Shown piece after piece: positions 13,590 to 36,692 of a DNA stretch of 36,692 nucleotides. Below the pieces are notes generated by a model that saw nothing but the letters and a program-made list of their open reading frames with translations, was not told the origin of the DNA and did not search any database. Made by a program: the position numbers and the translations under genes. Positions within the stretch are counted from its first letter, which is position 1; each line of letters starts with the position of its first letter. The stretch is from Frateuria sp. (lineage in GTDB: Bacteria > Pseudomonadota > Gammaproteobacteria > Xanthomonadales > Rhodanobacteraceae): NCBI RefSeq assembly GCF_013362045.1, contig NZ_JABFWW010000190.1, positions 1 through 36,692 of the forward strand. Direction: 5' to 3'.

Positions 13590-13661
13590 ATGAACCCGAC
13601 CGCCCCGATCAAGCCGACACGCCTGCGTCAGGTGCCGGCCATGCAACAGGCAACGCAATGA
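13590..13661 (+). CDS. Possible 23-codon leader peptide
   Basis: ATG at 13590 opens a short frame reading MNPTAPIKPTRLRQVPAMQQ plus three residues and a TGA whose first bases overlap the ATG of the next gene (ATGA at 13658-13661). A four-base overlap is typical of translational coupling, so this may be a small upstream ORF controlling the ATP-grasp gene. No Shine-Dalgarno is obvious and the overlap could be chance. Confidence 0.25.
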   Translation: MNPTAPIKPTRLRQVPAMQQATQ

Positions 13662-14629
13662 GGCAGAAGCTCAAGAACTTCAGGGACCAGGTGTCGCCGC
13701 TGCTCATGGTGCTGCCCGACTGCGCCTTCTACCAGTACAAGTACCTGCTGGCCCATGCCCGGATGTGCCGCTTCCAGAAGCCGCGGCGCTTCTCGGAGAA
13801 AATCTTCCATCGCATGCGCTATCCGTCGCCGCTGTTCTCGCGGCTGGCCGACAAGGTCGAGGTGCGCAGCTACATCGCCAATACCGTCGGCACGCAGTAC
13901 CTGGTGCCGGCCCACCTGATCACCGAACGGGTGGTCCCGGAAACCTTCGACGAGCTGCCCGAGAGCTTCGTGATGAAGGCCAACCACAGCTTCGGCCAGC
14001 TGCGCATCGTGCACGACAAGTACGACGAGGACCCGGTCGAACTGGCGCGCCTGGCCAATGCCTGGATGACGTCGGAATTTCCGATACGGATGCGCGAGAA
14101 GCATTACCGCTACATCCGCCCGCGCATCATCTTCGAGCATGCGCTGTTGACCGAGCGGCGCCCCCCCGACGACTTCAAGTTCAACGTGTTCAACCCCGGC
14201 CCGGGCCAGCAGCCGTACATCTTCATCCAGCACATGCAAGGCCGTTTCGAGCATTTGACCCAGGACCTCTACCTGGAGGACTGGTGCCCGGCGCCCTTCC
14301 AGCTGCTGCACCAGAAGACCAGCGGCCGCCTGGCGCCACGGCCCGACCAACTGGACGAAATGCTGCAGATCGCGCGCAGGCTGGCCGAACCGCTGGGCTA
14401 CATGCGTGTGGACCTGTACCTGCACCAGGGCCGTGTCTATGTGGGCGAGCTCACGCTCACCCCCGGTGCCGGCCGCTACGTCTTCGAACCGAAGGAATGG
14501 GACGAAACGCTTGGGACCAAGTTCGGCTGGCCCGAGCCTGCGCTGCACATGGACCTCCCCTCCAGCGGCAACGGCACCAGCAACGACGCCGCCGCGGTGA
14601 CCGCGCGCGTCGCCAGCACGCTGGAATGA
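13658..14629 (+). CDS. TupA-like ATP-grasp polysaccharide biosynthesis protein
   Basis: 323-residue cytoplasmic protein resembling the TupA-like ATPgrasp family (PF14305), often found in capsule, teichuronopeptide and exopolysaccharide loci. Typical blocks are the N-terminal KPRRFSEKIFHRM, ADKVEVRSYIANTVG, LPESFVMKANHSFG (ATP contact), YRYIRPRIIFEHAL, DFKFNVFN and MRVDLYLHQGRVYVGELTLTPGAG (acidic metal site). TupA attaches amino acids such as glutamate to polymer sugars, so a role in linking an amino acid to the repeat unit is plausible but unproven. The ATG at 13658 overlaps the stop of a 23-codon frame; its own stop overlaps an ATG at 14626. Confidence 0.85.
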   Translation: MRQKLKNFRDQVSPLLMVLPDCAFYQYKYLLAHARMCRFQKPRRFSEKIFHRMRYPSPLFSRLADKVEVRSYIANTVGTQYLVPAHLITERVVPETFDELPESFVMKANHSFGQLRIVHDKYDEDPVELARLANAWMTSEFPIRMREKHYRYIRPRIIFEHALLTERRPPDDFKFNVFNPGPGQQPYIFIQHMQGRFEHLTQDLYLEDWCPAPFQLLHQKTSGRLAPRPDQLDEMLQIARRLAEPLGYMRVDLYLHQGRVYVGELTLTPGAGRYVFEPKEWDETLGTKFGWPEPALHMDLPSSGNGTSNDAAAVTARVASTLE

Positions 14630-16088: not shown

Positions 16089-17987
16089 CTACTCGCCGAA
16101 CAGCGTATCGATCACCCGCTGCGCCAGCTCATCCACCGACGCTCCCTGCGTCTGCAGGTGCAGTTCCGGCCGCTCCGGCGGCTCGTACGGCGAATCGATG
16201 CCGGTGAAGTTCCTGATGCGCCCGGCACGCGCCTTGGCGTACAGGCCCTTGGGGTCGCGCTGTGCGCACACCTCCAGCGGCGTATCCACGAACACCTCGC
16301 GGAATTCGCCTTCGCCGAACAGCCCACGGGCCATGCCGCGCTCGCTGCGGAACGGGCTGATGAAGGACACCATCACGATCAGGCCGGCGTCCGCCATCAG
16401 CCTGGCCACTTCGGCCACGCGGCGGATGTTCTCCACGCGGTCCTCCTCGGTGAAGCCGAGGTCGCGGTTGAGGCCATGGCGCACGTTGTCGCCGTCCAGC
16501 ATGTAGGTGTGATAGCCCATCGCGTGCAGCCGCTTTTCCACCAGGTTGGCGATGGTCGATTTGCCCGAGCCGGACAGGCCGGTGAACCACAGGCACGCCG
16601 GGTTCTGGCCCTTGATGCGGGCGCGCGCGACGCGGTCGACGTCGGTGTGCTGCCAGTGGATGTTGTCGGCGCGGCGCAGGGCGAAGTTGAGCGTGCCTGC
16701 GGCAACGGTGGCGTTGGTCTGGCGGTCGATCAGGATGAACCCGCCGAGCTCGTGGCAGTCGTCGTAGGCCTCGAATGCGATCGCGTGGTCCAGGCCGAGG
16801 TTGCAATAGCCCACCTCGTTGAGCTCCAGGCGCTTGGCCGCCCGCTTCTCCTGGGTATTCACGTCGACGCGGTGCTTGATGTCGGTGACCTGCGCGGTGA
16901 CCAGGCGCGCACCGATCTTCATCCAGTAAGGGCGTCCCGGCAGCAACGCGGAAGCGTCCATCCACAGCACGTGCGCGGCGAACTGGTCGGCCACCTGCGG
17001 CGGTTGCGAGATGCTGGCGATCACGTCGCCGCGGCTGATGTCGCGCTCGTCTTCCAGCTGGATCGCCACGGCGTCGCCGACGCCGGCGCGCGGCAGGTCG
17101 CCGTCGGCGGTGACGATGCGCGCCACGCGCGAGCGCACGCCGCTGGGCAGCGCCACCACCTCGTCGCCCGGCGCGATGGAGCCGGCCACGACCTGTCCTG
17201 CATAGCCGCGAAAGTTCTGGTTGGGCCGGCATACCCACTGCACCGGCATGCGGAAGCCGAGCTTGCTTGCCGCGCGGTCGACCTGCGCGGACTCCAGTTG
17301 TTCGAGCAGGCTCGGGCCCTTGTACCAGCCCATCGCGCTCGAGCGGCGCGAGACGTTCTCGCCATGCAGCGCGGACAGCGGCACCGCGGTGACGTGCCCG
17401 ATGCCCATCTGCGCGGCGACCACGCGGTAATCGCTCTCGATGCGTTTGAAGACGCCCTGCGCATAGCCGACCAGGTCCATCTTGTTGACCGCCAGCAGCA
17501 CGTGGCGGATGCCGAGCAGGCCGCAGATGTAGGTGTGGCGGCGCGTCTGCGTCAGCAGGCCTTTGCGCGCATCGACCAGCACGACGGCCAGGTCCGCGGT
17601 GGAGGCGCCGGTGGCCATGTTGCGGGTGTACTGCTCGTGCCCCGGGCAGTCGGCGACGATGAACTTGCGCCTGTCCGTGCTGAAGAAGCGGTACGCCACA
17701 TCGATGGTGATGCCCTGCTCCTGCTCGGCCGCCAGGCCGTCGACCAGCAGCGCGAAATCAAGCTGCCCGTTCTGCGTGCCGTGGCGCAGGCTGTCGCCCT
17801 CCAGCGCCGCCAGCTGGTCGTCGAACAGCAGCTTGGTGTCGTACAGCAGGCGCCCCAACAGGGTGCTCTTGCCGTCGTCCACGCTGCCGCAGGTGATGAA
17901 GCGCAGCAGGCTCTTGGTCTCGTGCCGCTGCAGGTAGTCGTCGATCGCGGTGACCGCGCCCGCCGCCGATTCCATGCGCTTGGCCAT
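16089..17987 (-). CDS. cysNC: Sulfate adenylyltransferase large subunit / APS kinase fusion
   Basis: 632-residue bifunctional enzyme. The CysN GTPase half (about 1-440) works with CysD to make adenosine 5'-phosphosulfate: P-loop GSVDDGKS (34-41), switch [17 protein letters not shown], and NKMDLV. The CysC half (about 455-632) phosphorylates APS to PAPS: P-loop GLSGSGKS (470-477), [17 protein letters not shown], and [17 protein letters not shown]. The same fusion is known from NodQ of rhizobia and from several gammaproteobacteria. Its ATG overlaps the cysD stop by one base (TGATG), so translation is coupled. With two sulfotransferase genes 0.1 kb beyond cysD, the likely main role here is PAPS supply for polysaccharide sulfation, though cysteine synthesis would also be served. 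Confidence 0.96.
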
Positions 17988-18973
17988 CAGAAATAGCCCT
18001 CCTGCTTCTTCTTCTCCATCGAGGCCGAGGCGTCGTGGTCGATGATGCGGCCCTGGCGCTCGGAGGTGCGCGCCACCAGCATTTCCTGGATCACCGCCGG
18101 CAGCGTGTCGGCCTGCGACTCGATCGCCGCGGTGAGCGGATAGCAGCCCAGCGTGCGGAAGCGCACCTTGCGCATCTGCGGCACCTCGCCCGGCGCGAGC
18201 GGCATGCGCTCGTCGTCGACCATGATCAGCTGGCCGTCGCGCTCGACCACCGGACGTTCCCTGGCCAGGTACAGCGAAGGCACCTGGATGTTCTCGCGGT
18301 AGATGTAGAGCCAGATGTCCAGCTCCGTCCAGTTCGACAGCGGGAACGCGCGCACGCTCTCGCCCTTGTGGACACGCGCGTTGTAGAGGTTCCAGAGCTC
18401 CGGCCGCTGGCTCTTGGGGTCCCAGCGCTGCTGCGCATTGCGGAAGGAGAACACGCGCTCCTTGGCGCGCGATTTCTCCTCGTCGCGGCGCGCACCGCCG
18501 ATCGCCGCATCGAACTTGTACTGGGTAAGCGCCTGCTTCAGCGCCTGCGTCTTCATGATGTCGGTGTGCACGGCGGCGCCGTGCGTGAACGGACCGACGC
18601 CCTGCGCCACGCCCTCCTGGTTGGTGTGCACGAGCAGCCGGCACCCGGTTTCCTTCGCCCGGCGGTCGCGGAAGGCGATCATCTCGCGGAATTTCCAGGT
18701 GGTGTCCACGTGCAGCAGCGGTATCGGCGGCGCCGCCGGATGGAACGCCTTCTGCATCAGGTGCAGGAGCACCGACGAGTCCTTGCCCACCGAATAGAGC
18801 ATCACCGGGTTGGCGAATTCCGCCGCCACCTCGCGCATGATGTAGATGCTCTCCGCCTCCAGGCGCTTGAGGTGGGAGGCAGCGGCCAGGGAGTGGACTT
18901 CCGCGGCGCCGCCGCCGGATGCGGCTTTGCCGTGCGCAAGCGCGTTGTCGTCCGGCATTGCGGCCAGTTTCAT
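17987..18973 (-). CDS. cysD: Sulfate adenylyltransferase small subunit
   Basis: 328-residue ATP sulfurylase subunit of the PAPS-reductase-type PP-loop family. It adenylates sulfate with energy from the CysN GTPase. The PP-loop is [64 protein letters not shown] and [14 protein letters not shown] follow, ending in the conserved KKKQEGYF. The N-terminus carries about 25 extra Ala/Gly-rich residues compared with E. coli (302 aa). AAAGGACGAG before the ATG at 18973 sets the start; the frame is open for 16 more codons upstream. First gene of the cysD-cysNC operon. Confidence 0.96.
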
Positions 18974-19050
18974 GGGCTCGTCCTTTCGGTCCAGCAGCAA
19001 GGGCAACGCATATCGTTGCATCCTAGGTATCGGGTCGTGAAAGAAATCGT
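18974..19050 (-). promoter_or_regulatory. Upstream region of cysD with inverted repeat
   Basis: Read leftward it contains TAGGAT (19025-19020), a weak -10 candidate, and a perfect inverted repeat GCAACG/CGTTGC with a five-base spacer (19003-19019). It ends in the cysD Shine-Dalgarno. The inverted repeat could be an operator or an mRNA hairpin. The regulator is unknown. Confidence 0.25.
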
Positions 19051-19104
19051 TAGCCGTCCGTCATGCCGCCAGGGAATATCCGAGGCCTGCATCGCGCGCC
19101 GGCC

Positions 19105-20205
19105 TCACATGCCCAGCCACAGGGCGAAGCGGTTGGCCGCGTAGGTTTTCGGGCGCTCCCACCGGACCCGCCGATAGGGATGGCGCGCCTCCCGCCAGCG
19201 GTAGCCGAACGTCTCGAACACCGGCTCGGCAATGTGGTTCGCGAGGGCTATCTCGTAGTCGCTGACCTGCTCCCTCCATTTCTCCAGCGGACGCCGGGAG
19301 ACCCCGCGGAACGCCTCGTTGCTCGTGCTGTTGCCGCTCCACAGCCGGCCCATCGCCGTCGGCTGGGTAAGCGTCGGGTGGTAGCCGATGCCGAGGAAGC
19401 CGGCGACCTTCCGCATGACCGCCTCGGTGTCGCACACCAGATCCTCGAAGCGCACGCACAGGTAATTGGGTACGGCAAGGCGATTGGTGAACAGGTGGTG
19501 GTAGGAGTTGTGCAGCGAGGCCGCCATCGGCCATAGATAGGGAAAACGCGCGCTCTTCTTCTGCAGCATCCGCCGCACGGCGACCAGCGTGGCGTACGGA
19601 TTGCGCACGATGTGGACGAAGCGCGCGCCGGGAAAATAGCTCGCCAGCACGTAGGCGAATTCGGCGTGTTCCACCGACTTCTCCACCAGCACGCGCCCGG
19701 GCGGGGGCGGCACGCCGAACGCTGCCTCGTGGGCGGCGCGCATGTAGCCGAGGAAGAACGCGGGCATGTCTTGCGGATCGAGCTTGCGCAGGCGCGATTC
19801 CAGCACCTCCATGCGGTAGTGGAAGCCCGGCGCGTCGGCATAGGGATTATCCCGGCCAGTGTCCTGGCGGATCTGCTGCAGCAACTGGTCGATGAACTGC
19901 TGACGGTCGAGCGGACGGGGGATGTTGCGCCGCCGCCGATAGTCCACCCAGTGGTTGGTGAACTGGAACAGGTGCGTTTCCTTGGGCAGCACCGCCAGCT
20001 CGGGATGACCGTCCAGGAGGCTGCGCAGGAGGCTGCTGCCGCTCTTGTGCGATCCGAGCAGGAACACCGGCGCGCTGCTGCCGGCGGCCTTGCGGCCGAC
20101 GGCGCCGCCGAGCGGAGTGGCGAAAGCATGCCCGGACGCGAGCCCGCGAGGCCGCGATGGACCTGGTTGTCCCGGCAGATGGTTGGTGAAGGCGGTCGGT
20201 TCCAT
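19105..20205 (-). CDS. PAPS-dependent sulfotransferase 1
   Basis: 366-residue cytoplasmic sulfotransferase. The 5'-phosphosulfate-binding loop is FLLGSHKSGSSLLRSLLDG (about 48-66) and is followed by LPKETHLF. The 3'-phosphate motif is VHIVRNPYATLVAVRR (197-212), preceded by VEKSVEH. These are the two defining PAPS-binding elements of the Sulfotransfer superfamily. The first 45 residues are Pro/Gly-rich and probably disordered. The ATG at 20205 has GGGAG upstream and lies one base after the stop of sulfotransferase 2, so the two are co-translated. The acceptor is probably a sugar of the lipid-linked repeat or the polymer, judged by the surrounding locus. Confidence 0.87.
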   Translation of the reverse strand: MEPTAFTNHLPGQPGPSRPRGLASGHAFATPLGGAVGRKAAGSSAPVFLLGSHKSGSSLLRSLLDGHPELAVLPKETHLFQFTNHWVDYRRRRNIPRPLDRQQFIDQLLQQIRQDTGRDNPYADAPGFHYRMEVLESRLRKLDPQDMPAFFLGYMRAAHEAAFGVPPPPGRVLVEKSVEHAEFAYVLASYFPGARFVHIVRNPYATLVAVRRMLQKKSARFPYLWPMAASLHNSYHHLFTNRLAVPNYLCVRFEDLVCDTEAVMRKVAGFLGIGYHPTLTQPTAMGRLWSGNSTSNEAFRGVSRRPLEKWREQVSDYEIALANHIAEPVFETFGYRWREARHPYRRVRWERPKTYAANRFALWLGM

Positions 20206-20206
20206 G

Positions 20207-21064
20207 TCAGGCTCCCGCGGCATACCCGAAGGCGGACATCGGCTTGGCGCAGGTAGCCTCGATGATGCGCAGGTTCTCCCGGCCAAAGAAGTTTTCCAGC
20301 ACCGCATTGCGGTCGCCGCGCGGCTGGAACTGCTTGTCCACTTCGCCGCTGATGTCGTTGACGACCGCCAGCCCGAGGTCGTCGGCCAGCTGCTCGATCA
20401 CGCCCACCTTGTCGGCCACGAAGTCCTCGTAGCGCACCAGATGGATGGACGACTTCGCATCGAAATACTGGCGGGTGCCCAGGCACCATCGCTGGGACAG
20501 GCGGGAGATGTAGTTGCCGCGGCTGATGGCCAGGCCACGCCCGTCGACGATCGCGCGCCAGCCCTTCTGGCTGGACGGTATGAAATTGTCCTCCGGCTCC
20601 AGCTCGCGCAGGTTGCCCGGGATCTTCAATCGGTTGAGGATGCTGCGGATGTTGTCGCGCGGGTCGCGCACGATGAACACCTGCTGCGATTGCGGAAACC
20701 GAGCTTTCAGTTGCGGGTAGAGGAAGGCGAAATCGGGATCCTTGATGATCCTCGCCTGGAAGTAGGCGCCGAACCGGTTTATGAACTCGTCGACGGTGAG
20801 CCGCCCTTCCAGGATGTCCGGCAGCAGGAAATCCTTGGCGTCGTGGTACAGCACGTGCCAGAACGGATCGTTGCTGAACTGGGCGCCGACCGCCTTGGCC
20901 AGCAGCGCCGCGATGACCGTGGTGCCCGACTTGGGGCTGCCGCCGATGATCACCGGCTGCGGATAGACCCGGGCGGCCCGGTGCTGACAGAAGCGGATGC
21001 ACGTGCGACCGAATCGGCTTGCCTGCCGGAGGGGATGGGGCAATTCCCTCAGAAAATCGCGCAT
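20207..21064 (-). CDS. PAPS-dependent sulfotransferase 2
   Basis: 285-residue sulfotransferase, clearly different from its neighbour outside the cofactor motifs. The 5'-PSB loop is VIIGGSPKSGTTVIAALL (about 38-55); the 3'-PB motif is VFIVRDPRDNIRSILNR (129-145). RYEDFVADK is the usual late conserved block of the superfamily. The ATG at 21064 was chosen because AAGGGA lies seven bases upstream; an ATG at 21079 adds five residues without a ribosome site. It is followed after one base by sulfotransferase 1 and preceded after 96 bases by the Wzx gene. The presence of two dissimilar enzymes suggests two sulfation positions. Confidence 0.88.
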   Translation of the reverse strand: MRDFLRELPHPLRQASRFGRTCIRFCQHRAARVYPQPVIIGGSPKSGTTVIAALLAKAVGAQFSNDPFWHVLYHDAKDFLLPDILEGRLTVDEFINRFGAYFQARIIKDPDFAFLYPQLKARFPQSQQVFIVRDPRDNIRSILNRLKIPGNLRELEPEDNFIPSSQKGWRAIVDGRGLAISRGNYISRLSQRWCLGTRQYFDAKSSIHLVRYEDFVADKVGVIEQLADDLGLAVVNDISGEVDKQFQPRGDRNAVLENFFGRENLRIIEATCAKPMSAFGYAAGA

Positions 21065-21160
21065 AAGAAATCCCTTCATGCCGGTCGCTACCGCAAGATC
21101 TTCCCAGCGGCCACATCAAGACGGCGTCCAGGCCGCTCCAGATCATCGGCATCCGCCCGC

Positions 21161-27692: not shown

Positions 27693-28862
27693 TCAGGAAA
27701 CCGGACGGGCGAAGGAGACGCCGGGCGCGTCGGTGCCCAACAGACGCTCGTAGACGTCCAGCGTGCGCTGGATGACCATCCGCTCGTCGAACTCGCCCAG
27801 CGCCTTTTCGCGGGCCTTTGCGCCCAGGCGGGCGAGCAGTTCGCGATCGTCGTCCAGGCGGGCGACCAGCGCAGCCAGCGCATCGGCGTCGCGCGGCGGC
27901 ACCACCAGGCCGTCCACGCCATGCCGGGCGACCACCTCGCGGCAGCCCGGCTCGTCGGTGGTGATCAGCGCCAGGCCGGCGGCGGCGCCCTCGATCAGGC
28001 TCTTGGGCACGCCCTCGCGGTAGTAGCTCGGCAGCGCCATCACGTCGATGGTGGAAAGCAGCGCGGGCATGTCCTCGACGTGGCCCAGCCAGGTGATCAC
28101 GCCCTCCTCCGCCCAGCGCTGCACTTGCGCGGGCCTGACCGAGCGCGGATTGCCCGGGTCGGGGGCGCCGGCGAGCACGAACTCGACGTCGCGCCCCTGC
28201 GCCTTGAGCTGCCGCGCGGCCTCGACGTATTCGCCGATGCCCTTCTCCCACAACAGGCGTGCGGCGAGCAGCACGCGCAGCCGGCCGTCGCGGCCGGACA
28301 TGGAGCTGGGCCGGAAGCGCGAGGTGTCCACGCCGGAGCTGCGGATGACGTGGATGCGGTCCTCGGCCACCAGCCGCGCGCGGCGGAAGATCTCCGCGTC
28401 GTCCGGGTTCTGCAGCACCAGCAGCGAGCGCCGATGGTCGAGCGAGCCGCGCATCATCGCCTGCACCAGCGGGCGCAGGCAGCGCGCCTTGATGCTGTTG
28501 CTGGTGAACACGTAGCCCATGCCGGCCACGGCATTGACGGTCGCCGGCACCCCGGCCAGCCGCGCGGCAGCGCCGCCGTACACCGCGCACTTGACGGTGA
28601 AGTTGTGCAGCAGGTCCGGCTTCTCGCGGCGAAGCACGCGCACCAGGTGCCGCAGGGTCATCGCTTCGCGCAGCGGGTTGAGGCTGGCGCGGTCCATCGG
28701 CAGCGTGATCCAGCGGAAGCCGCGCGCGGCGAAGCGGCCGCCGAACGGACCCGGCGGCGAGAGCATCACCACGTCGTGCCCGTCCGCCTGCAGCCGTTGC
28801 GCGGTGGACAGGCGGAAGTTGTAAAGGTACCAGTCGGTGTTGGCGTAGAAGACGAATTTCAT
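27693..28862 (-). CDS. GT4-family glycosyltransferase (PglA-like)
   Basis: 389-residue GT-B transferase. The N-terminal KFVFYANTDWYLYNFRLS, LLHNFTVKCAVYGGAAARL and VNAVAGMGYVFTS are typical of PglA/WbpX-like HexNAc transferases. The hinge is SSGVDTSRFRPS. The donor side has LLAARLLWEKGIGEYVEAAR, FVLAGAPDPGNP, and the E-x7-E site in REGVPKSLIEGAAAGLALI. AAGGGA lies about ten bases before the ATG at 28862. It is the last gene of the leftward operon that starts at the pyruvyl transferase; 49 bases separate it from beta-helix 3. Donor sugar unknown; HexNAc is a reasonable guess. Confidence 0.9.
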   Translation of the reverse strand: MKFVFYANTDWYLYNFRLSTAQRLQADGHDVVMLSPPGPFGGRFAARGFRWITLPMDRASLNPLREAMTLRHLVRVLRREKPDLLHNFTVKCAVYGGAAARLAGVPATVNAVAGMGYVFTSNSIKARCLRPLVQAMMRGSLDHRRSLLVLQNPDDAEIFRRARLVAEDRIHVIRSSGVDTSRFRPSSMSGRDGRLRVLLAARLLWEKGIGEYVEAARQLKAQGRDVEFVLAGAPDPGNPRSVRPAQVQRWAEEGVITWLGHVEDMPALLSTIDVMALPSYYREGVPKSLIEGAAAGLALITTDEPGCREVVARHGVDGLVVPPRDADALAALVARLDDDRELLARLGAKAREKALGEFDERMVIQRTLDVYERLLGTDAPGVSFARPVS

Positions 28863-28911: not shown

Positions 28912-30024
28912 CTAGGAATTGAAGGTGTTGCCGGAGACGTGCACGTTGGAGGTGGAGTCGTCGATGCGCAGGTCGAGCTTGTGCGAGCCGCCGCCTCCGC
29001 GCGGTCCGGAAACGAGCGACTTGAGCGCACGGTGCAGATAGCGCGTGCTGTTGGACGATAGGGTGTTGCCGGTGATCTTCACGTCACTGGTATGCCCGCC
29101 CAGGGTGATCCCGTTCATGCCGTTGCTGGCGATGGTGTTGCCGTCGACCCACAGGTTGTCCATGTCCACCGCCAGGATGCCGTAGCTGGAGTTGTCCTGG
29201 ATCGTGCACTGGCGGATCACCAGGCCCGACACGTTGCGGTGGATCTCCACCCCGCAGCCCTTGTTGCCGGTCATCGTGCAGCCCTGGATCAGCACGTCGC
29301 TGACCTGGCCCTGCCCCATCGGCTCCAGGTCGATGCCCGACTGCGGCTTGGTGCCCTGGGTATCGCTGAAGGTGCAGTTGAGGATGCGCACGCGCTGGCA
29401 CGGACCCAGCGACATGCCCTGGCGGCGGTTGTTGGTGCACACCACGTCCTGCAGCGTGATGTCCGAGGCCATCTCCATGTTCGCGCCTTTGCCCTTGGCG
29501 CTGATCAGCACGCCGTCGCCCCAGCAGCCGGAGATATGGGTGCCCGTGACCGTTACGTTGTGCGAGCCGGTGATGTTGATGCCGTAGCCCCACTCGCCCT
29601 GGACGTCCTGGTGCAGGTCGCGCTCGCCGACGATGCGGCCGCCGGTGATCTGCACGTTGTCCGCATCCCACACCTTGATGATGTGATAGCGCTTGAGCGC
29701 GTTGGGCAGCGCGGTCAGCCGGGCGTCCGGCGCCATGTCCAGGCGCACGTTGGAACGCAGGTTGATCGCATGCGAGGCGTCGACCATGTAGTTGCCGGCG
29801 GGCACGTGCACCGTGCCGCCGCTGCTTGGCAATGCATCGATCGCCGCCTGGATCGCCGAAGTATCGTCGTCGTTGCCGTTGCCGCGCGCGCCCTTAGTGC
29901 GCACGTCGATGACGACGTCTTTCGCGGCGACGCGGTATGACGCCGGCGCGAGCAGCGTGGCGGTGGCCAGCGCCAGGGCGCGACGCAGGAACGCCCGGCG
30001 GGCGGCTTCGTCATGCTGGCTCAT
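28912..30024 (-). CDS. Tat-exported right-handed beta-helix protein 3
   Basis: 370-residue paralog of beta-helix 1 and 2, but with a twin-arginine signal: ARRAFLRRALALATATLLA (RRxFL, residues 9-13), cut near AAK. Cap motif IDVRTKGARGNGNDDDTSAIQ and GGTVHVPAGNYMV. The helix blocks parallel the others: WGYGINITGS, SGCWGDGVLIS, NNRRQGMSLGP, GIDLEP; it also has extra Cys residues (GCWGDG, VVCTNN, NCTF, GCTM, GCGV) not found in the paralogs. GGGAGGAA precedes the ATG at 30024, which overlaps the stop of AsnB-like protein 1 by four bases. Tat use implies folding, and possibly modification or cofactor loading, before export. Confidence 0.87.
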   Translation of the reverse strand: MSQHDEAARRAFLRRALALATATLLAPASYRVAAKDVVIDVRTKGARGNGNDDDTSAIQAAIDALPSSGGTVHVPAGNYMVDASHAINLRSNVRLDMAPDARLTALPNALKRYHIIKVWDADNVQITGGRIVGERDLHQDVQGEWGYGINITGSHNVTVTGTHISGCWGDGVLISAKGKGANMEMASDITLQDVVCTNNRRQGMSLGPCQRVRILNCTFSDTQGTKPQSGIDLEPMGQGQVSDVLIQGCTMTGNKGCGVEIHRNVSGLVIRQCTIQDNSSYGILAVDMDNLWVDGNTIASNGMNGITLGGHTSDVKITGNTLSSNSTRYLHRALKSLVSGPRGGGGSHKLDLRIDDSTSNVHVSGNTFNS

Positions 30025-31484
30025 GCGTGTTCCTCCCACACCGGCGTGCCGGCATCCACGCGGCTGAGCAGCCACGGCAGGGCGATCGCCAGCAGGTAGA
30101 ATTTGGAAGCGAAGAACTTGTTGTCCATGCGGTCGCGGTGCGCCTCCAGCCAGCGCATCGCGCCGGGCATCAGTTCCCGTGCCTCGACCGCGAAGGCGTG
30201 CACCTGCTCGAAGCGCTCCGCGGCCAGGCCGCACAGGTCGAAGCGGAAGCTGCCCTTGGCCTTCACGTACGGCAGTTCGGCGAAGCGCCGGGCGATGTGC
30301 TTGCGTACCAGCGGCTTGTTGTGGCCGTCGCGGTCGATCAGCTGCGCGTCCGGCACCTCGCGGTAGACCCACTCCCGCAACTGCGCATCGCAGAAGGGGT
30401 AGGCCTGGCGCAAGCCCAGCGCGGTGGTCGTGTACTGCCCCTTGGGAAAGGCCGCCGCCGCCTCGGCGATGGCTGCCGAAACGCGCTTGCGCGCCTCGGC
30501 CGTGCGGGTGGCCGCCAGCTCGTCGCGGAACACCTGCAGGCGTTGCCGCGATTGCGCCGCTACCTGCCGGCCGAGCAGGCGGTCGACCTCCGCGTCGCTG
30601 AAGCGCGAGCCGGGGAAATAGCGCTCGAACGGGTCCATCCCCAGCGTCGCCAGCACGAAGCAGGCGGCGAAGCTGTGGCTGAAGGGCCGCGCATCGAACA
30701 GCCCGGCGGGAAGGGGCACGCTGCGCGCCAGCCGGGTGAGCAGCTTGCGCTTGAGGTCCACCGGCGTGCCGAAATAGACGTCCGAACCGAGCCCGTCGAT
30801 GACCCCGTCGCCGCCGCTCTGGGCTATCTCGGTGGTCAGGTCGACATACGACAGCAGCGCGAAGTCGGCCGACAGCAGCGGCATGCGCGGCACCATCGCC
30901 AGGTAGCGGTCGTATGCGCGCGACGGCTTGCAGACCAGCGCCTCGTGGCGCAGGCCGAGTTGGCGCGCGACCGAGCGGGCCGAGGTCACCTCGTCCTCCT
31001 CGCGGCCGCCGAGGTAGGTCAGGCAGCGCGTGTCCGGCCGCGCTTCGGACACCGCGATCGCCAGCGAAGTGGAATCCTTGCCGCCGCTCTGCAGCAGCCA
31101 GGGCGAATGCATGCCCGCGGTCGAACGGCTGACTGCCTCGCACAGCAGGCGGTGGTAGGTCTCGAGCAGTGTCCCCTCGTCGACCGCCTGCTCCGCCGGG
31201 CGCGTCGGCGCAGGCGAAGACCGGTAGGCGAAGGTGTACTGGGGCGAGGTATGCAGGTCGCGCTCCGGGTCGAAGCCGAGGCTGGCGACCTTCACGTCGC
31301 GGTAGATCGAATGGGGCGGGTAGACGAAGGCGTTGCGCAGCAGGTCGGCGATCGAGACCGGGTCCAGCGGACGGCCGCCGCCCAGCCCCGACAGCGGCGT
31401 GAAATCCACTTCCCCACGGTAGGGTGAGGTACTGAGCTTGATGAGGGGATCGGGCTGCTGCAGTGCGACTGCGGAGGAGGCCAT
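30021..31484 (-). CDS. Asparagine-synthetase-like protein 1 without glutaminase nucleophile
   Basis: 487-residue PP-loop enzyme of the Asn_synthase (PF00733) type. The ATP-pyrophosphatase loop is LLQSGGKDSTSLAI (SGGKDST 133-139). CLTYLGGREEDEVTSAR and VIDGLGSDVYFG correspond to the AMP/aspartyl-adenylate blocks of AsnB; NKPLVRKHIARRF and KGSFRFDL lie near the C-terminus. The N-terminal 120 residues keep only the tail of a class II amidotransferase domain (FVYPPHSIYRDVKV) and lack the N-terminal Cys nucleophile, so free ammonia, a partner glutaminase or an internal amine must be the nucleophile, as in beta-lactam synthetase. ATG 31484 is the likely start; the frame is open further upstream. 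It is a tandem paralog of the next gene and overlaps beta-helix 3. Confidence 0.85.
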   Translation of the reverse strand: MASSAVALQQPDPLIKLSTSPYRGEVDFTPLSGLGGGRPLDPVSIADLLRNAFVYPPHSIYRDVKVASLGFDPERDLHTSPQYTFAYRSSPAPTRPAEQAVDEGTLLETYHRLLCEAVSRSTAGMHSPWLLQSGGKDSTSLAIAVSEARPDTRCLTYLGGREEDEVTSARSVARQLGLRHEALVCKPSRAYDRYLAMVPRMPLLSADFALLSYVDLTTEIAQSGGDGVIDGLGSDVYFGTPVDLKRKLLTRLARSVPLPAGLFDARPFSHSFAACFVLATLGMDPFERYFPGSRFSDAEVDRLLGRQVAAQSRQRLQVFRDELAATRTAEARKRVSAAIAEAAAAFPKGQYTTTALGLRQAYPFCDAQLREWVYREVPDAQLIDRDGHNKPLVRKHIARRFAELPYVKAKGSFRFDLCGLAAERFEQVHAFAVEARELMPGAMRWLEAHRDRMDNKFFASKFYLLAIALPWLLSRVDAGTPVWEEHA

Positions 31485-31641
31485 GGCGTCGGTTTCGTTT
31501 GCTGTGGATCGGGGCAAGGAGCGCGTGCCGCGTCGTCGCGCGGCGTCATGCTCGATGCGTTCGAGATAACAGTGCGATTGCCATCGCCGGGTGAAAACGC
31601 GCCGCCGTCGCGCGCATCCTGTTTCCGGCTTTTGCACGCGT

Positions 31642-33123
31642 TCACATTTGCAGCGGTGCAGCTGGCGCGTCCGCGGGAACCTGCGCCGCCTTCATGCGAT
31701 CGAGCAGCCAGGGCAGCACGATCGCGAGCAGGTAGAACTTGGACGCGAAGTATTTGTTGTACAGCCGGTGGCGATGCGCCTCCAGCCAGCGCGGCGCGCC
31801 CGGCAACAGCGGCTGCGCCTGCATGGCGAAGTCATGCACCTGGTCGAAACGCAGGCGCGCCAGGCCGCACAGGTCGAAACGGAACGAGCCCTTGTGCTGG
31901 ACGTAGGGCAACTGCTCGAAATGCCGCGCGATGTGCCGGCGCACCAGCACCTTGTTGGTGCCGTCCGGCGCCATCAGGTAGTCGTCGGGCACCTGGTGGA
32001 ACACCCAGTCGCACAGCGGCGCCTCGCAATAGGGATAGGCCAGCCGCAGGCCGAGCGCGCTGGCGGCGTACATGCCCTTGCCGAAGATCGCCGCTTCCAC
32101 GATCGTGGCCGAGACGCGGCGGCGCGCCTCCTGCGTCTTGGCCGCGGCAATGTCCGAGCGGAACAATTCCAGCCGCTGGCGCGAACGGTCGGCGACGCGC
32201 TGGCCGAACAGCGCATCGACCTCGGCGTCGGTGAAGCGCGAGCCGGCATAGAAGCGCTCGAACGCGTCCATCTGCAGCGTGCCCAGCGCGTAGCAGAGCT
32301 TGAAGTTGCGCCCGACCAGACCGGACCGGAATATCCAGGCCGGCAGCCGCAACCCGCGCGCGAGCAGGCCGAGCATGCGCTGCTGCCAGGGCGCCGGCAC
32401 TCCGAAGTACGGATCCGAGCCGAGCGCATCGACGATGCCGTCGCCGCCGCGGGCGCCGATCTCGGTGGCCAGATCCGCATACGACAGCACGGCGAAATCG
32501 GCCGTGAGCAGCGGCATCCGCGGCACCATCGCCAGGTAGCGCCCATAGGCACGCGCCGGGTCGCACACCAGCGCTTCGTGGCGCAGCCCCAACCGCCGCG
32601 CCACCAGGCGCGCCGACGCCACCTCGTTCTCCTCCGAGCCGCCCAGGTAGGTTATGCAGGTGGTCTGCGGGCGCGCCTCGGCCATGGCGATGGCCATCGA
32701 GGTGGAGTCCTTGCCGCCGCTCTGCAGCAGCCAGGGCGTGCTCATCGCGGCGGTACTCTCCGCCACCGCCCTGCACAGCAGGCGATGGTAGGTATCCACC
32801 AGCGTGCGGGCGTCCACCGCGGCGGCGGCCGGCCGGGCCATCGCCGCGGCCGACTGGCGGGCGAAGTGGAAGCGCGGGCTGTCGTGCAGGTCCTGCGACG
32901 GATCGAAGCCGGTGGTGGCGACCTTGACGTCCTTGTAGATCGTGTGCGGCGGATAGACGAAGGAGTTGCGCAGCAGGTCGGCGACCGATACCAGGTCGAG
33001 CGCCGCGGCGCCGCCGGGATAGTCGGCCAGCGGCGCGAAGTCCGGCGCGCCCGCGTGCGGCGAAAGTCCGATCTGGATGCGGCGCCCCGTCGCCGCGGCT
33101 GGGACTGCGATGGTGACCGTCAT
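31642..33123 (-). CDS. Asparagine-synthetase-like protein 2 without glutaminase nucleophile
   Basis: 493-residue tandem paralog of protein 1, similar along the whole length. SGGKDST is at 135-141; CITYLGGSEENEVASAR, VDALGSDPYFGVP, NKVLVRRHIARHFEQLPY and KGSFRFDL correspond one by one. The N-terminus again lacks a Cys2 nucleophile and keeps the remnant FVYPPHTIYKDVKV. GAGGG upstream of ATG 33123 supports the start; the open frame extends 37 codons further. It lies between the Wzy gene and protein 1 (157-base gap). Known enzymes with this fold amidate carboxyls or close lactams; in O-antigen loci AsnB-like proteins amidate uronic acids. A sugar-amidation role is therefore possible, not shown. 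Confidence 0.85.
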   Translation of the reverse strand: MTVTIAVPAAATGRRIQIGLSPHAGAPDFAPLADYPGGAAALDLVSVADLLRNSFVYPPHTIYKDVKVATTGFDPSQDLHDSPRFHFARQSAAAMARPAAAAVDARTLVDTYHRLLCRAVAESTAAMSTPWLLQSGGKDSTSMAIAMAEARPQTTCITYLGGSEENEVASARLVARRLGLRHEALVCDPARAYGRYLAMVPRMPLLTADFAVLSYADLATEIGARGGDGIVDALGSDPYFGVPAPWQQRMLGLLARGLRLPAWIFRSGLVGRNFKLCYALGTLQMDAFERFYAGSRFTDAEVDALFGQRVADRSRQRLELFRSDIAAAKTQEARRRVSATIVEAAIFGKGMYAASALGLRLAYPYCEAPLCDWVFHQVPDDYLMAPDGTNKVLVRRHIARHFEQLPYVQHKGSFRFDLCGLARLRFDQVHDFAMQAQPLLPGAPRWLEAHRHRLYNKYFASKFYLLAIVLPWLLDRMKAAQVPADAPAAPLQM

Positions 33124-33238: not shown

Positions 33239-34285
33239 TCAGACCACGATTCCCCGCGTCACGTAGAAGTAGAAGACCCCGCAGGCGGCAACCAGCCCCA
33301 TGCGCAGCACGATCGGATTGCGCAGCGGCGAGAGCCGGTTGTCGCAGCAGATCGCCGCCAGCATCAGCGAGGCCGACAGCCACGCCGGCAGCAGGTAGCG
33401 GTTGGAGAAATTGCCCCAGCCGACGGCGAAGAACGGCAGCATCAATACCAGGTAGATGGCCGTGCTGCGGTTGATCCGGTCGCGCACCGGCTCGCGCACC
33501 AGCGGCGCGACGATGAAGGGCAGCAGGTACCAGAACAGCGAGAAGACCGCGAAATCCAGCCGCACGCCGGTGCGGTAGGTGGCGCTGCCGTCATAGGCCA
33601 TCACCAGCGCATAGACGCCGGGCACCAGCGCGCCCACCACCAGCATGGTCAGGCCGCTGCAGTAGGCGAGGAATGCGGCAATGCCCAGCGCGCGCTGCAG
33701 CTTCGGCTTGAGCAGCAGCACCGGCGCGAACAGCAGGTACAGGACCGCGGAGTAATGGAAGCCGGCCGCCAGCAACCCCCACAGCATGAAGGCCCGCCAC
33801 TGCCGCTGGTGGAACGCCAGCAGTGCGGTGAACACCAGCAGCGAGGCCAGCCCCTGGCGCACCACGTTGATCGAGGCGTTGGACATCACCGGCGAAACGA
33901 ACAGGAACAGCAGCGAGGCGACCAGGAAGGTCATGTAGCGCGTCTCGCTCTGCAGGTAGGCGTGGTAGCGGCGGGTGGCCACCACCACGGTGGCCATCAT
34001 CACCAGGAACAGCGCGCTCTGGTAGGTGGCCAGGCTCACGCCCAGGCCAGCGATGCCCGCGGTAAGGTAATAGAACACCGGCTCGAAGCGGCTCTGCACT
34101 AGGCCATGATGGGTCATCGCGTTGTACAGGCCGGCGTACACCGGCGTGTCGGTGCCGATGTCGAGGCCGCGGCTGCCCACCGCCATGTCGATGAACAGCA
34201 TCACCGCGCCCACCATCATCAGCGCCAGCATCACGCGGGCGTTGGTGTTGGATGGGGTGTCGTTCAATGCAAGGGTCTGGTCCAT
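33239..34285 (-). CDS. wzy: EpsG-like polysaccharide polymerase (Wzy)
   Basis: 348-residue polytopic inner-membrane protein resembling the EpsG family (PF14897), which acts as the Wzy polymerase joining flipped repeat units in the periplasm. About ten hydrophobic helices alternate with short loops. The NVVRQGLASLLVFTALL block with its Arg is the most typical EpsG element; YNAMTHHGLVQSRFEPVFY and FSNRYLLPAWLSASLM also fit. ATG 34285 follows the GT2-C stop by five bases, so the genes are coupled, although the ribosome site is weak. Wzy proteins diverge strongly, so the call rests on topology, the RQG block and context. Confidence 0.82.
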   Translation of the reverse strand: MDQTLALNDTPSNTNARVMLALMMVGAVMLFIDMAVGSRGLDIGTDTPVYAGLYNAMTHHGLVQSRFEPVFYYLTAGIAGLGVSLATYQSALFLVMMATVVVATRRYHAYLQSETRYMTFLVASLLFLFVSPVMSNASINVVRQGLASLLVFTALLAFHQRQWRAFMLWGLLAAGFHYSAVLYLLFAPVLLLKPKLQRALGIAAFLAYCSGLTMLVVGALVPGVYALVMAYDGSATYRTGVRLDFAVFSLFWYLLPFIVAPLVREPVRDRINRSTAIYLVLMLPFFAVGWGNFSNRYLLPAWLSASLMLAAICCDNRLSPLRNPIVLRMGLVAACGVFYFYVTRGIVV

Positions 34286-34290
34286 GGTCG

Positions 34291-35211
34291 TCAACTCGCC
34301 TGGTCGAGACGGGGGGCTTGCGGATCGGCGGCAAGCCGCCGTGCACGGGTGAGCACGATGCGCCGTCCGTAGCGGAGCAGGCTGAGCGCGTCGGCCGCGC
34401 GCATGCGCGGCCAGCTCAGCAGCCCCAGTGCGTGCAGGCTGCGGCGCACGTCGCGCGCGGCCGCGTACATCGCCGGCATGTCGCCGCTCAGTCCGCCGGC
34501 GCCGAAAGGCGGCTTGTGCCACGAGGCCAGCACCGGATCGATGCGCGCACAGCGATGGCCCGACAGGAGCACCTGCGCCCAGAGCATGAAGTCCTCGGCG
34601 CGCCGGCGGTTTTCGTCGAAGCGGAAGGGCAGGTCCCGCCGCAGCACGATCGAGGCGGTGGGAAACGGGCTGCCCAGCAGGGGAAGCTTCGCCGGCAGCA
34701 CGCGCACCGCGACCGGGTAGCGCACGACCGGCGGCGGCTGCGTGCGCGGCTGCACGTTCATAGCATGCGCGATCAGGGCGATCTGCGGATCATCGGCCAG
34801 CGCGTCCATCTGGATCGAGAGCTTCTCCGGGTGCCAGGTGTCGTCGGCGTCCAGGAAGGCCACGTAGGTCTGGCGCGCGTGCGCCCAGCCGAGGTTGCGC
34901 GCGGCGGACGGGCCGCCGTTGCGCGGCAGCGTCAGTACCCTGACCCAGCCCACCGGGTAGCTGCGCGCCACCTCGTGCAGTTGCTCGAGCGTGCCGTCGC
35001 CGCTGCAGTCGTCGACCAGCAGCACTTCCGCCGGGATCAACGTCTGGGCGGCGATCGAGGCCACTGCCGGCTCGATCGTGTCGACGCATCGGTAGCAGGG
35101 CACCACCACGCTCACCGGCGCGGTCGGTCGCGGGGCGGGAGCCGCGCCGGCGGGCGCCAGGCCGACGCTCTCGTCGCTGCGCAGCTTGCCCGCTTCATTG
35201 TTCGCTTGCAT
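34291..35211 (-). CDS. GT2-family glycosyltransferase C
   Basis: 306-residue GT-A transferase, paralog of GT2-B (23794-24684). PVSVVVPCYRCVDTIE, VLLVDDCSGDGTLEQLHE, NGGPSAARNLGW, FLDADDTWHPEKL (DADD 121-124) and RRRAEDFMLWAQVLL form the catalytic and acceptor blocks. The first 30 residues are a polar, Ala/Pro-rich extension. GGAG seven bases before ATG 35211 fixes the start; a further in-frame ATG at 35238 would overlap the previous gene. The gene starts 15 bases after the pyruvyl transferase stop and ends five bases before wzy. Donor unknown. Confidence 0.9.
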   Translation of the reverse strand: MQANNEAGKLRSDESVGLAPAGAAPAPRPTAPVSVVVPCYRCVDTIEPAVASIAAQTLIPAEVLLVDDCSGDGTLEQLHEVARSYPVGWVRVLTLPRNGGPSAARNLGWAHARQTYVAFLDADDTWHPEKLSIQMDALADDPQIALIAHAMNVQPRTQPPPVVRYPVAVRVLPAKLPLLGSPFPTASIVLRRDLPFRFDENRRRAEDFMLWAQVLLSGHRCARIDPVLASWHKPPFGAGGLSGDMPAMYAAARDVRRSLHALGLLSWPRMRAADALSLLRYGRRIVLTRARRLAADPQAPRLDQAS

Positions 35212-35225
35212 GGTCGCTCCGGTAT

Positions 35226-36443
35226 TCAGCAAAGGCATTCGGAAATGCGCGCGGTGGCGGCGCGCGCGGCCAGCTGCGATTCGACGAGGCGCAGTTCGAG
35301 CAGGTCGCGCATGGCATGCTCCCGTTGCACCAGCCGCTCCAGCGACTCGCGCAGCGTCCGCGCGGAGAGGTTGCGCGCCTGCAGCACCGTCTCCTGGTTG
35401 CCGAACATGTCGCGGTTGATGCCGCAGGCCTTGACGCTATAGGCGATCGAGACGGTGGGCACCCCGCTGGAGAGCGCCGCGATCACCGCATGCGCGCGCG
35501 CGCCGATGAAGAAGCGCAGGTAGCTGATGACGTACTTGGTCTGCGCCGCATTGAAGGTGTTGGGCATCGTCTTGACCGCATCGCCCAGGTCGGCCAGCCG
35601 CTCCAGCAGCGGCGCCATGTATTGCGCGTCGCCGCCATGCACGTCGTCGCGCAGGGGGTCGGCGTGGGGGATCAGCAGCACGCCCAGCCGGTAGTCCTTC
35701 ACGGCGCGGCGGATGAAGGTTTCCAGCTCCGCCTGTACGTTCTTGTCGTGCCGCTTGTGGCGCTCGACCAGGCGGCTGACGTTGAGGCCAAGCACGTGGC
35801 CCTCGCCGCGGGGCCAGAACGGCTTGAGGTCCACCGGCTCCTTGCCGAGCATGAACGAGGGCTCGGCCATGCGGATCACGTTGCGCAGGCCCAGCTTGTG
35901 GATCAGGTAGTCGTGGCTCATCGATTCGCCCGTGGCCACGAAATGCATGCGCGCCAGGTGGCGCGTCACCGGCTCGACGAACTCCGGCTCGCGCTCGAAC
36001 GGACCCACCGAGGCACCCCACAGCACTACCGGCTTGCCCATGTCCATCGCCCAGGCGTCCACGCTCATGATCGGCGTGGGGATGCGGTAGTCGAGCGAGT
36101 AGTTGTCCCCGCCCACGGCCAGCACGGCATCGACCGTTTCCAGCTGGCGGCGCAGCCAGTGGGGCATCGGGAACGGCCAGCCCGCGCGCTTGATCAGCGG
36201 CAACGGCAGGCTTTGCAGATGCACCCAGTAGCGCGTCGGCGGCGGCAAGTAGGCGCGCACGAAGCGCACGCCGTAGTCGGCGGCGTGCGCCCATTGCGCA
36301 CTGTCGCGCGCGATGTTGACCGAGGGCACCAGCACCTCCACCTCGCCGAACTGGTCCTTCAGCAGGGCGGCCGTACTGCGCACGATCGCCTCGCAACCGC
36401 GGTTGCGGAACGTGCGCTGTCCGGAGAGGTAGAAACGTTTCAC
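35226..36443 (-). CDS. Polysaccharide pyruvyl transferase
   Basis: 405-residue enzyme of the PS_pyruv_trans family (PF04230; CsaB, GumL and WcaK-like), expected to transfer pyruvate from PEP to form a ketal on a sugar of the repeat. The N-terminal KRFYLSGQRTFRNRGCEAI, AVLAVGGDNYSLDY, PVVLWGASVGPFE, HVLGLNVSRLV, LLIPHADP, and the late FIGARAHAVIAALSSGVPT are all family blocks. The start is a GTG at 36443 with AGGA seven bases upstream; no in-frame ATG is nearby. First gene of the leftward operon down to 27693. Pyruvylation adds negative charge, as sulfation does. Confidence 0.92.
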   Translation of the reverse strand: MKRFYLSGQRTFRNRGCEAIVRSTAALLKDQFGEVEVLVPSVNIARDSAQWAHAADYGVRFVRAYLPPPTRYWVHLQSLPLPLIKRAGWPFPMPHWLRRQLETVDAVLAVGGDNYSLDYRIPTPIMSVDAWAMDMGKPVVLWGASVGPFEREPEFVEPVTRHLARMHFVATGESMSHDYLIHKLGLRNVIRMAEPSFMLGKEPVDLKPFWPRGEGHVLGLNVSRLVERHKRHDKNVQAELETFIRRAVKDYRLGVLLIPHADPLRDDVHGGDAQYMAPLLERLADLGDAVKTMPNTFNAAQTKYVISYLRFFIGARAHAVIAALSSGVPTVSIAYSVKACGINRDMFGNQETVLQARNLSARTLRESLERLVQREHAMRDLLELRLVESQLAARAATARISECLC

Positions 36444-36585: not shown

Positions 36586-36692
36586 TCAGGCCGTTGCCGC
36601 AGGCCGCAGCGCGGCTGCCGACGGCACCGGGACCGAAGCGAGCGACCGCCCGCGCCCGATGCCGTAGTAGGCCAGCCCCGCCTCCTCCACCT
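36586..36692 (-). CDS. C-terminal fragment of an unknown leftward gene
   Basis: Open frame running off the right edge and ending with TGA at 36586-36588. The visible 34 residues begin VEEAGLAYYGIGRGR and end LRPAATA. Codon use matches neighbouring genes (G/C in third positions). It lies 142 bases before the pyruvyl transferase start on the same strand and may be an earlier gene of the same operon. Too short to assign a function. Confidence 0.4.
   Translation of the reverse strand, partial: VEEAGLAYYGIGRGRSLASVPVPSAAALRPAATA

Follow-up and report, generated by a model that had tools for sequence, protein, structure and literature searches.

Glutaminase-less AsnB-type proteins, probable amide synthetases, encoded in tandem in an exopolysaccharide locus of Frateuria sp.

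The two adjacent genes asnA and asnB' on a 36,692-nucleotide stretch of DNA from Frateuria sp. (NCBI RefSeq assembly GCF_013362045.1, contig NZ_JABFWW010000190.1) were found to belong to a conserved family of short AsnB-type proteins from which the glutaminase active site has been lost. This stretch, called the window below, is a complete contig (C60) of a genome assembled into 317 contigs with 3.14 Mb in total (G000). From their sequences, asnA and asnB' are paralogues within a subfamily of AsnB-type amide synthetases that lacks the glutaminase, and both are probably active. We give about even chances to the reading in which they act as ATP-dependent amide synthetases, amidating a uronic acid in the exopolysaccharide (EPS) repeat unit with a free amine or with ammonia, and are coupled to an exported beta-helix enzyme acting on the polymer. 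The two genes and their nucleotide-binding motif are as follows.

31642..33123, minus strand: asnA, upstream copy, probable glutaminase-less AsnB-type synthetase of 493 amino acids (PF00733, 41.5 bits)
30021..31484, minus strand: asnB', downstream copy, probable glutaminase-less AsnB-type synthetase of 487 amino acids (PF00733, 44.2 bits)
32704..32721, minus strand: PP-loop SGGKDS of asnA (residues 135-140), invariant in 47/47 aligned family proteins

Both proteins score above the PF00733 cut-off of 21 bits, and the SGGKDST loop together with the ALGSD/GLGSD blocks was found in the pair, which bears out an earlier sequence-only reading that had described tandem AsnB-like proteins with these motifs kept. 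The N-termini are MTV (Met-Thr) in asnA and MAS (Met-Ala) in asnB', so neither protein starts with Met-Cys, as had also been stated, and an N-terminal Cys nucleophile is absent. Neither of them matched any glutaminase family at E<=1. The genome has three PF13537 matches, none of them on the contig of the window, and its own AsnB (contig C289) contains both the synthetase and the glutaminase domain. Comparison by hhalign of 47 family proteins (47 of the 48 from Rhodanobacteraceae, asnA and asnB' included, the remaining one being in the 62-row tree described below) with 16 full-length AsnB-type proteins gave a probability of 98.7% and an E of 2.9e-16. This alignment starts at family residue ~30, which corresponds to AsnB-type consensus position ~168 of 644, and therefore the family covers no more of the glutaminase domain than its end. 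The AlphaFold (AF2) model of asnA (predicted local distance difference test, pLDDT, 87.3; predicted template modelling score 0.89) was aligned with 12 AsnB-type structures, in which the first aligned chain residue was 99-142; so ~100-140 residues, including the glutaminase active site, are gone and the tail is kept, in agreement with the earlier claim. The wzy stop lies 115 bp upstream of asnA and 157 bp separate asnA from asnB', and therefore there is no space for the missing front part of either gene. The reading frame of asnB' stays open up to a GTG at 31637.

The kinship of the family rests on Pfam, hhalign and fold comparison because sequence searches of the PDB gave little. With asnA alone, phmmer found no PDB match at E<=10, and the 47-row profile found only QueC, a short stretch of beta-lactam synthetase and some further matches that are likely due to chance. 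In the fold comparison, the asnA model matched AsnB-type synthetases at Z 16.4-21.6, whereas other PP-loop enzymes reached Z 11.2 and lower. The best matches were TsnB9 (Z 21.6), carbapenam synthetase (19.8) and human asparagine synthetase (19.2), followed by beta-lactam synthetase (18.4) and E. coli AsnB (16.4). The pair stays below the cut-offs of both TIGR01536, the AsnB equivalog (32.5 and 33.7 bits against 267.1), and TIGR03108, the XrtA/PEP-CTERM amidotransferase (21.8 and 28.6 bits against 816.9).

Residues S135, G136, G137, K138, D139, S140, D237, K391 and K411 were found to be invariant in 47/47 aligned family proteins, and all of them except K138 align by hhalign with positions that are invariant in 16/16 AsnB-type proteins. 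The hallmarks of AsnB, i.e. the PP-loop S-G-G-x-D-S, the second Asp (D237) and the conserved Lys (K411), are kept in every one of the 47. The ATP/Mg residues, on whose presence the sequence-only reading depended, are retained as judged by profile alignment and not by structural superposition. Moreover, the ratio of nonsynonymous to synonymous substitution rates (dN/dS) was below 0.5 in 8/8 pairs compared by NG86, a crude method at 68% G+C. Comparison of asnB' with three congeners gave 0.23-0.29 and that of asnA with two congeners 0.27-0.38; the pairs L071/L072 and L045/L046 had values of 0.08 and 0.17, and asnA against asnB' had 0.49. The family is intact and under purifying selection, and the short form is common to it and conserved across it; hence the word 'decayed', which had been used for the glutaminase domain of these proteins, does not hold.

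The residues on the other side of the active site are different. E349, E353, Y358 and R401 of the genome's own AsnB correspond by hhalign to Leu234, the variable position 238, a gap and Ala362 in the family. E353, Y358 and R401 (in the numbering of that AsnB) are invariant in 16/16 AsnB-type proteins and likely serve the acceptor side. In the 47 family proteins, position 234 is Leu in 40, Ile in four, Met in two and Gln in one; position 238, facing E353, is Glu in 7/47; and Pro243, the residue following the gap that faces Y358, is invariant in 47/47. A Glu-Tyr pair with five-residue spacing is described for the peptide nitrile synthetase PesC, in which the Tyr to Phe change leaves no activity and the Glu to Ala change leaves less (PMC13060819), and we infer that it is the E353/Y358 pair of AsnB. 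Judging from these aligned positions, the family probably binds an acceptor other than that of AsnB.

AsnB and the XrtA/PEP-CTERM EPS amidotransferase have the synthetase domain and the PP-loop as in the asn pair, the latter (TIGR03108) being a full-length AsnB-type amidotransferase and an EPS-system family by name. In comparison to both, the glutaminase active site is absent from the asn family, and the Glu and Tyr after the GSD block are lost. Beta-lactam and carbapenam synthetases have a complete N-terminal domain with a lost Cys and no working glutaminase, they carry a catalytic Tyr at the position of AsnB Glu348, and their nucleophile is an amine within the substrate molecule itself. Their structures (1jgt, 1q15 and related entries) show the same AsnB-type fold as the asnA model (Z 16.7-19.8), but these chains contain ~100-136 N-terminal residues (first aligned residue 99-136) which are absent from the asn family, and the position equivalent to the AsnB Glu is Leu/Ile/Met in 46/47 asn proteins and not Tyr. 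The sequence-only reading had likened the pair to these synthetases. The likeness stands for the lack of a working glutaminase and fails for the N-terminal region and for the Tyr position; the link is loose and the analogy partial. The top match of the asnA model, TsnB9 (7ylz, by its entry title a hydroxyamidotransferase; 385 residues, rmsd, i.e. root mean square deviation, 3.9), is aligned from TsnB9 residue 142 with 17% identity.

Counting full-length members only, 48 were found in 19/233 genomes of Rhodanobacteraceae; a sample of 299 genomes of the order added 14 members, from 10 genomes of another family. No full-length member was found outside the order in the class (369 genomes) and phylum (398 genomes) samples, the phylum being the widest level reached by the profile search; the matches there were all partial and weak, with a best E of 4.6e-11. 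Plasmid records gave no match to the asn family. A peptide-pattern scan of the genome contigs gave two loci, both within the order, which were dropped as duplicates of the G078 and G175 places with the same gene maps. Of the 52 genomes in Rhodanobacteraceae with a match, 33 had weak ones only (best E 2.2e-8 or worse), and these were not counted; nor was a fragment of 46 residues in G071. Loci L109 and L110, around weak matches and without gene calls, were excluded. In 11 of these 33 genomes, those with fetched loci, full-length AsnB-type proteins starting Met-Cys-Gly were found. By the asnA protein, the nearest named relatives are Dyella nitratireducens (63% identity), a genus placed in Rhodanobacteraceae, Lysobacterales, and a Lysobacterales metagenome-assembled genome. 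Tandem asn copies are retained in two families of the order, and the missing glutaminase is a trait that is fixed across this conserved family. Among the matches listed in open-licence PMC literature there was no publication on a glutaminase-less asn family, which is weak evidence of absence.

The genes around the pair in the window are listed below.

36619..36690, minus strand: UDP-glucose-type 6-dehydrogenase, C-terminal 24 residues, truncated at the contig end (tblastn)
35226..36443, minus strand: polysaccharide pyruvyl transferase, GTG start (PF04230, 100.8 bits)
34291..35238, minus strand: family 2 glycosyltransferase (GT2), GT2a (PF00535, 102.3 bits)
33239..34285, minus strand: wzy, EpsG-family polysaccharide polymerase (PF14897, 89.6 bits)
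28912..30024, minus strand: BH1, right-handed beta-helix protein of 370 amino acids (PF13229, 86.3 bits)
27693..28862, minus strand: family 4 glycosyltransferase (GT4), last gene of the conserved block (PF00534, 96.0 bits)

The pyruvyl transferase, GT2, wzy, asnA, asnB', BH1 and GT4 genes form a compact run on the minus strand, in which the stop of asnB' and the start of BH1 overlap by 4 bases. Scanning of these neighbouring genes agrees with the earlier statement that the pair is part of a polysaccharide operon and has wzy and a beta-helix gene as neighbours; the operon is of the Wzy type. Among the 62 members, 44 lie <=5 genes from wzy or wzc and one more is in a GT4-beta-helix locus, which makes 45 in EPS loci. 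In EPS loci asn is present as a single gene or in tandem (1-3 copies), and a beta-helix gene on the same strand comes next in 30/30 runs; it follows in 0/16 of the non-EPS runs with a visible next gene, one more run (L054) being at a contig edge. The gap between the asn run and the beta-helix gene is -4 bases in 16/30 and between -50 and +14 in 26/30 by called starts; genes in the relatives were called by a codon-usage script, and their starts are uncertain, so that the overlap counts are uncertain too. The EPS loci also carry Wzc, Wzb, Wzx and pyruvyl transferases (assigned by clusters, one protein of each being scanned). Relatives of GT2a were also found beside asn in four places outside EPS loci. 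Among the asn copies away from EPS loci, an FAD monooxygenase adjoins five (L051, L054, L057, L060 and L064); the one scanned, of L051, has VioC as its nearest model with 176.7 bits, under the cut-off.

A UDP-glucose-type dehydrogenase cluster was found in 6/28 fetched EPS loci and at the edge of the window. The dehydrogenase of locus L069 scored 443.6 bits as a nucleotide-sugar dehydrogenase (cut-off 189.8), and its top model was TuaD with 469.1 bits, below the cut-off of 700. A tblastn search with the G093 dehydrogenase found 24/24 identical residues in the window and 37/37 (the first 37) on contig C53, after wzc, and the dehydrogenase gene of the window genome probably stood just before the pyruvyl transferase gene, as in the congeners. 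This gene is split over contig ends (window positions 36619-36692; contigs C53, C78 and C235 of G000), and the presence of its start on both C53 and C78 suggests two near-identical copies breaking the assembly. A nitroreductase-family gene stands directly before the pyruvyl transferase gene in L044, L048 and L069 (one of the three scanned).

Comparison with five congeners showed two classes, asnA-like (G095 and G096) and asnB'-like (G093, G094 and G097), and the window has one of each. In the 62-row tree, asnA groups with G095/G096 (100/97) and asnB' with G093/G094/G097 (100/100); these are also their nearest kin, with identities of 71% and 78-79%, respectively. When the congeners were compared with the window, the flanking genes were steady (pyruvyl transferase 85-89%, GT4 86-92% identity), whereas GT2 (67-76%, some GT2 gene calls in the congeners being short), wzy (69-75%), the matching asn (71-79%) and BH1 (59-69%) were variable. 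The same division was observed between the classes, with 69-72% for GT2, 63-65% for wzy, 58-60% for asn and 59-62% for BH1, against 86-90% for the pyruvyl transferase and 85-88% for GT4. Repeat-unit-specific genes tend to vary while their flanks stay constant, and the co-variation of GT2, wzy, asn and BH1 therefore indicates that the structure of the repeat unit probably matters to the asn enzymes and to BH1.

The N-terminus of BH1 has a Tat-like (twin-arginine translocation) RRAFLRR motif by eye, and its AF2 model has a pLDDT of 88.1. The best fold matches of this model are the alginate epimerase/lyase 8ja4 (Z 40.9, rmsd 1.3 over 295 residues) and AlgE4 and AlgE6 (Z 39.4), AlgE-type epimerase/lyase structures as a whole being matched at Z 39-41 with rmsd 1.3-1.4. 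For the D-P-H motif, around which the catalytic site of AlgE-type C5 epimerases/lyases lies, the hidden Markov model (HMM) and fold alignments disagree on the register in BH1; in the HMM alignment, the D and H of the motif are paired with Glu260 and His262, both nearly invariant. As the catalytic-site registers disagree, we did not assign BH1 as a true mannuronan epimerase. Among PDB sequences, the phage tail fibre 7qoj gp22 comes closest to the BH1 family (E 1.5e-43), and the two have the W-G-x-G, WGDG, NRRQG and DIEP motifs in common, and the bacterial beta-helix protein and the phage tail domain may share a site. Two further beta-helix paralogues lie on opposite strands at 24828-26003 and 26442-27599, and the congener stretches L045 and L046 have four beta-helix genes beyond the GT4 gene. 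In three congeners (L070, L071 and L072; one of the three scanned) a tyrosinase-domain protein is encoded between beta-helix genes.

In the mechanism proposed here, the asn proteins, being unable to release ammonia from glutamine, would activate (adenylate) a carboxylate with ATP and pass it to a free amine or to free ammonia. The carboxylate would likely be that at C6 of a uronic acid in the EPS repeat unit. As the asn proteins have no export signal by eye, amidation is expected in the cytoplasm, before polymer export, while BH1 may be exported and act on the polymer in a lyase- or epimerase-like manner. The two asn copies could make two related decorations. In favour of a uronate acceptor are the fold of BH1, which is nearest to uronate-acting AlgE-type epimerases/lyases, and the UDP-glucose-type dehydrogenase in the six loci and at the window edge. 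Several observations weigh against it. The fold of BH1 is not diagnostic, since phage spikes, polygalacturonases (which are hydrolases) and the Vibrio polysaccharide (VPS) lyase RbmB were matched at Z 30-37. In 22/28 fetched EPS loci, some of them contig-cut, no UDP-glucose-type dehydrogenase was seen. Further, 17/62 members are outside EPS loci (eight solitary, five by the FAD monooxygenase and four by a lone GT2), so the chemistry is not bound to polymer assembly alone. E349, E353, Y358 and R401 on the acceptor side of AsnB are not kept in the family, and hence the acceptor is not readable from sequence. Finally, the region also encodes a TupA-like ATP-grasp protein, which could take the role of uronate amide ligase in place of the asn pair. 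This and the other decoration genes of the window are the following.

13658..14629, plus strand: TupA-like ATP-grasp, second candidate amide ligase (PF14305, 105.7 bits)
16089..21079, minus strand: sulphate activation by CysNC (with adenosine 5'-phosphosulfate kinase) and CysD, and two sulfotransferases

The TupA-like ATP-grasp was found in G000 and in the congeners G093-G097. However, TupA was not matched in 13/19 genomes of the family that carry asn, and 3/9 TupA genomes have no asn, which shows that the two do not co-occur beyond the genus. The TupA-like protein either points to amide decoration or competes with the asn pair as a candidate. In 5/5 congener stretches there were matches to cysD and cysNC, with 85-91% identity, and to one or more of the sulfotransferases, so the polymer may be sulphated.

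The sequence-only reading had supposed a modification chemistry not described for such loci. This was not supported, since TIGR03108 is present in EPS systems and amidated uronates are described for Vibrio VPS and the C. jejuni capsule. In the C. jejuni capsule, serinol and ethanolamine amides of glucuronic acid (GlcA) are made by a TupA-like ATP-grasp enzyme, and with the amidoligase Cj1438 the amidation of GlcA is needed before a GT2 adds the next sugar (PMC11800379). This order of amide before GT2 parallels the GT2-asn link found here, but the fold of Cj1438 (TupA-like ATP-grasp) is unrelated. In Vibrio VPS, a glycine amide of GulNAcA (N-acetylgulosaminuronic acid) is described (PMC3901696), which makes it an amide-bearing uronate polymer. 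The fold of its beta-helix lyase RbmB matches that of BH1 at Z 34.8.

Other functions of the pair were also considered. The proteins share the synthetase core of the AsnB type, and full-length AsnB-like amidotransferases are thought to make uronamides for some O-antigens. The pair might accordingly turn a uronic acid into a simple amide with free ammonia, only the glutamine supply having been lost, as the AS-like PesC takes ammonia in place of glutamine (PMC13060819). We consider this unlikely, since loss of the domain in the whole family suggests a nucleophile other than glutamine-channelled ammonia, and no glutaminase was found among the neighbour proteins scanned. It is likewise doubtful that a small carboxylic acid (an amino or hydroxy acid) is activated and transferred to an amino sugar of the repeat unit, at its amino group. 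The activated acid may differ from that of AsnB given the replaced acceptor-side residues, and the four members beside a lone GT2 of the same family would fit such N-acylation, but the sole sugar-activating enzyme in the scanned window and ten neighbour proteins (other neighbours being unscanned) is the UDP-glucose-type dehydrogenase. The eight solitary copies and the five beside the FAD monooxygenase could point to a small-molecule enzyme that is unrelated to the polymer and hitch-hikes in EPS loci; this is quite improbable in view of the same downstream neighbour in all 30 EPS runs, mostly overlapping or a few bases off, and of the co-variation of asn with wzy and GT2. That the proteins are an inactive relic or scaffold, as might be suggested by the complete absence of a glutaminase active site and of the conserved Glu and Tyr that follow the GSD block in AsnB, is hardly credible with invariant ATP/Mg residues, dN/dS below 0.5 in every pair and tandem copies maintained in two families.

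Amidation of a uronic acid in the repeat unit can be extended, as a tentative proposal, to the order as a whole: order-specific, glutaminase-free synthetases might attach amide-linked groups to uronates of Wzy polymers, each paralogue adding a different group, and asn, GT2, wzy and the beta-helix gene might form an allelic cassette in which the beta-helix protein reads or cuts the decorated polymer, two alleles being combined in the window. The asn gene offers a tractable handle on this system, as it is short, is present in a named Dyella strain and is tied to a polymerase and to an enzyme that likely acts on the polymer. Amidation would take away negative charge from the polymer and could thereby alter its gel strength, metal binding and recognition by phages and enzymes. 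If true, the proposed chemistry would constitute a glutamine-independent route to amidated acidic polysaccharides, separate from that of the TupA-like ATP-grasp ligases.

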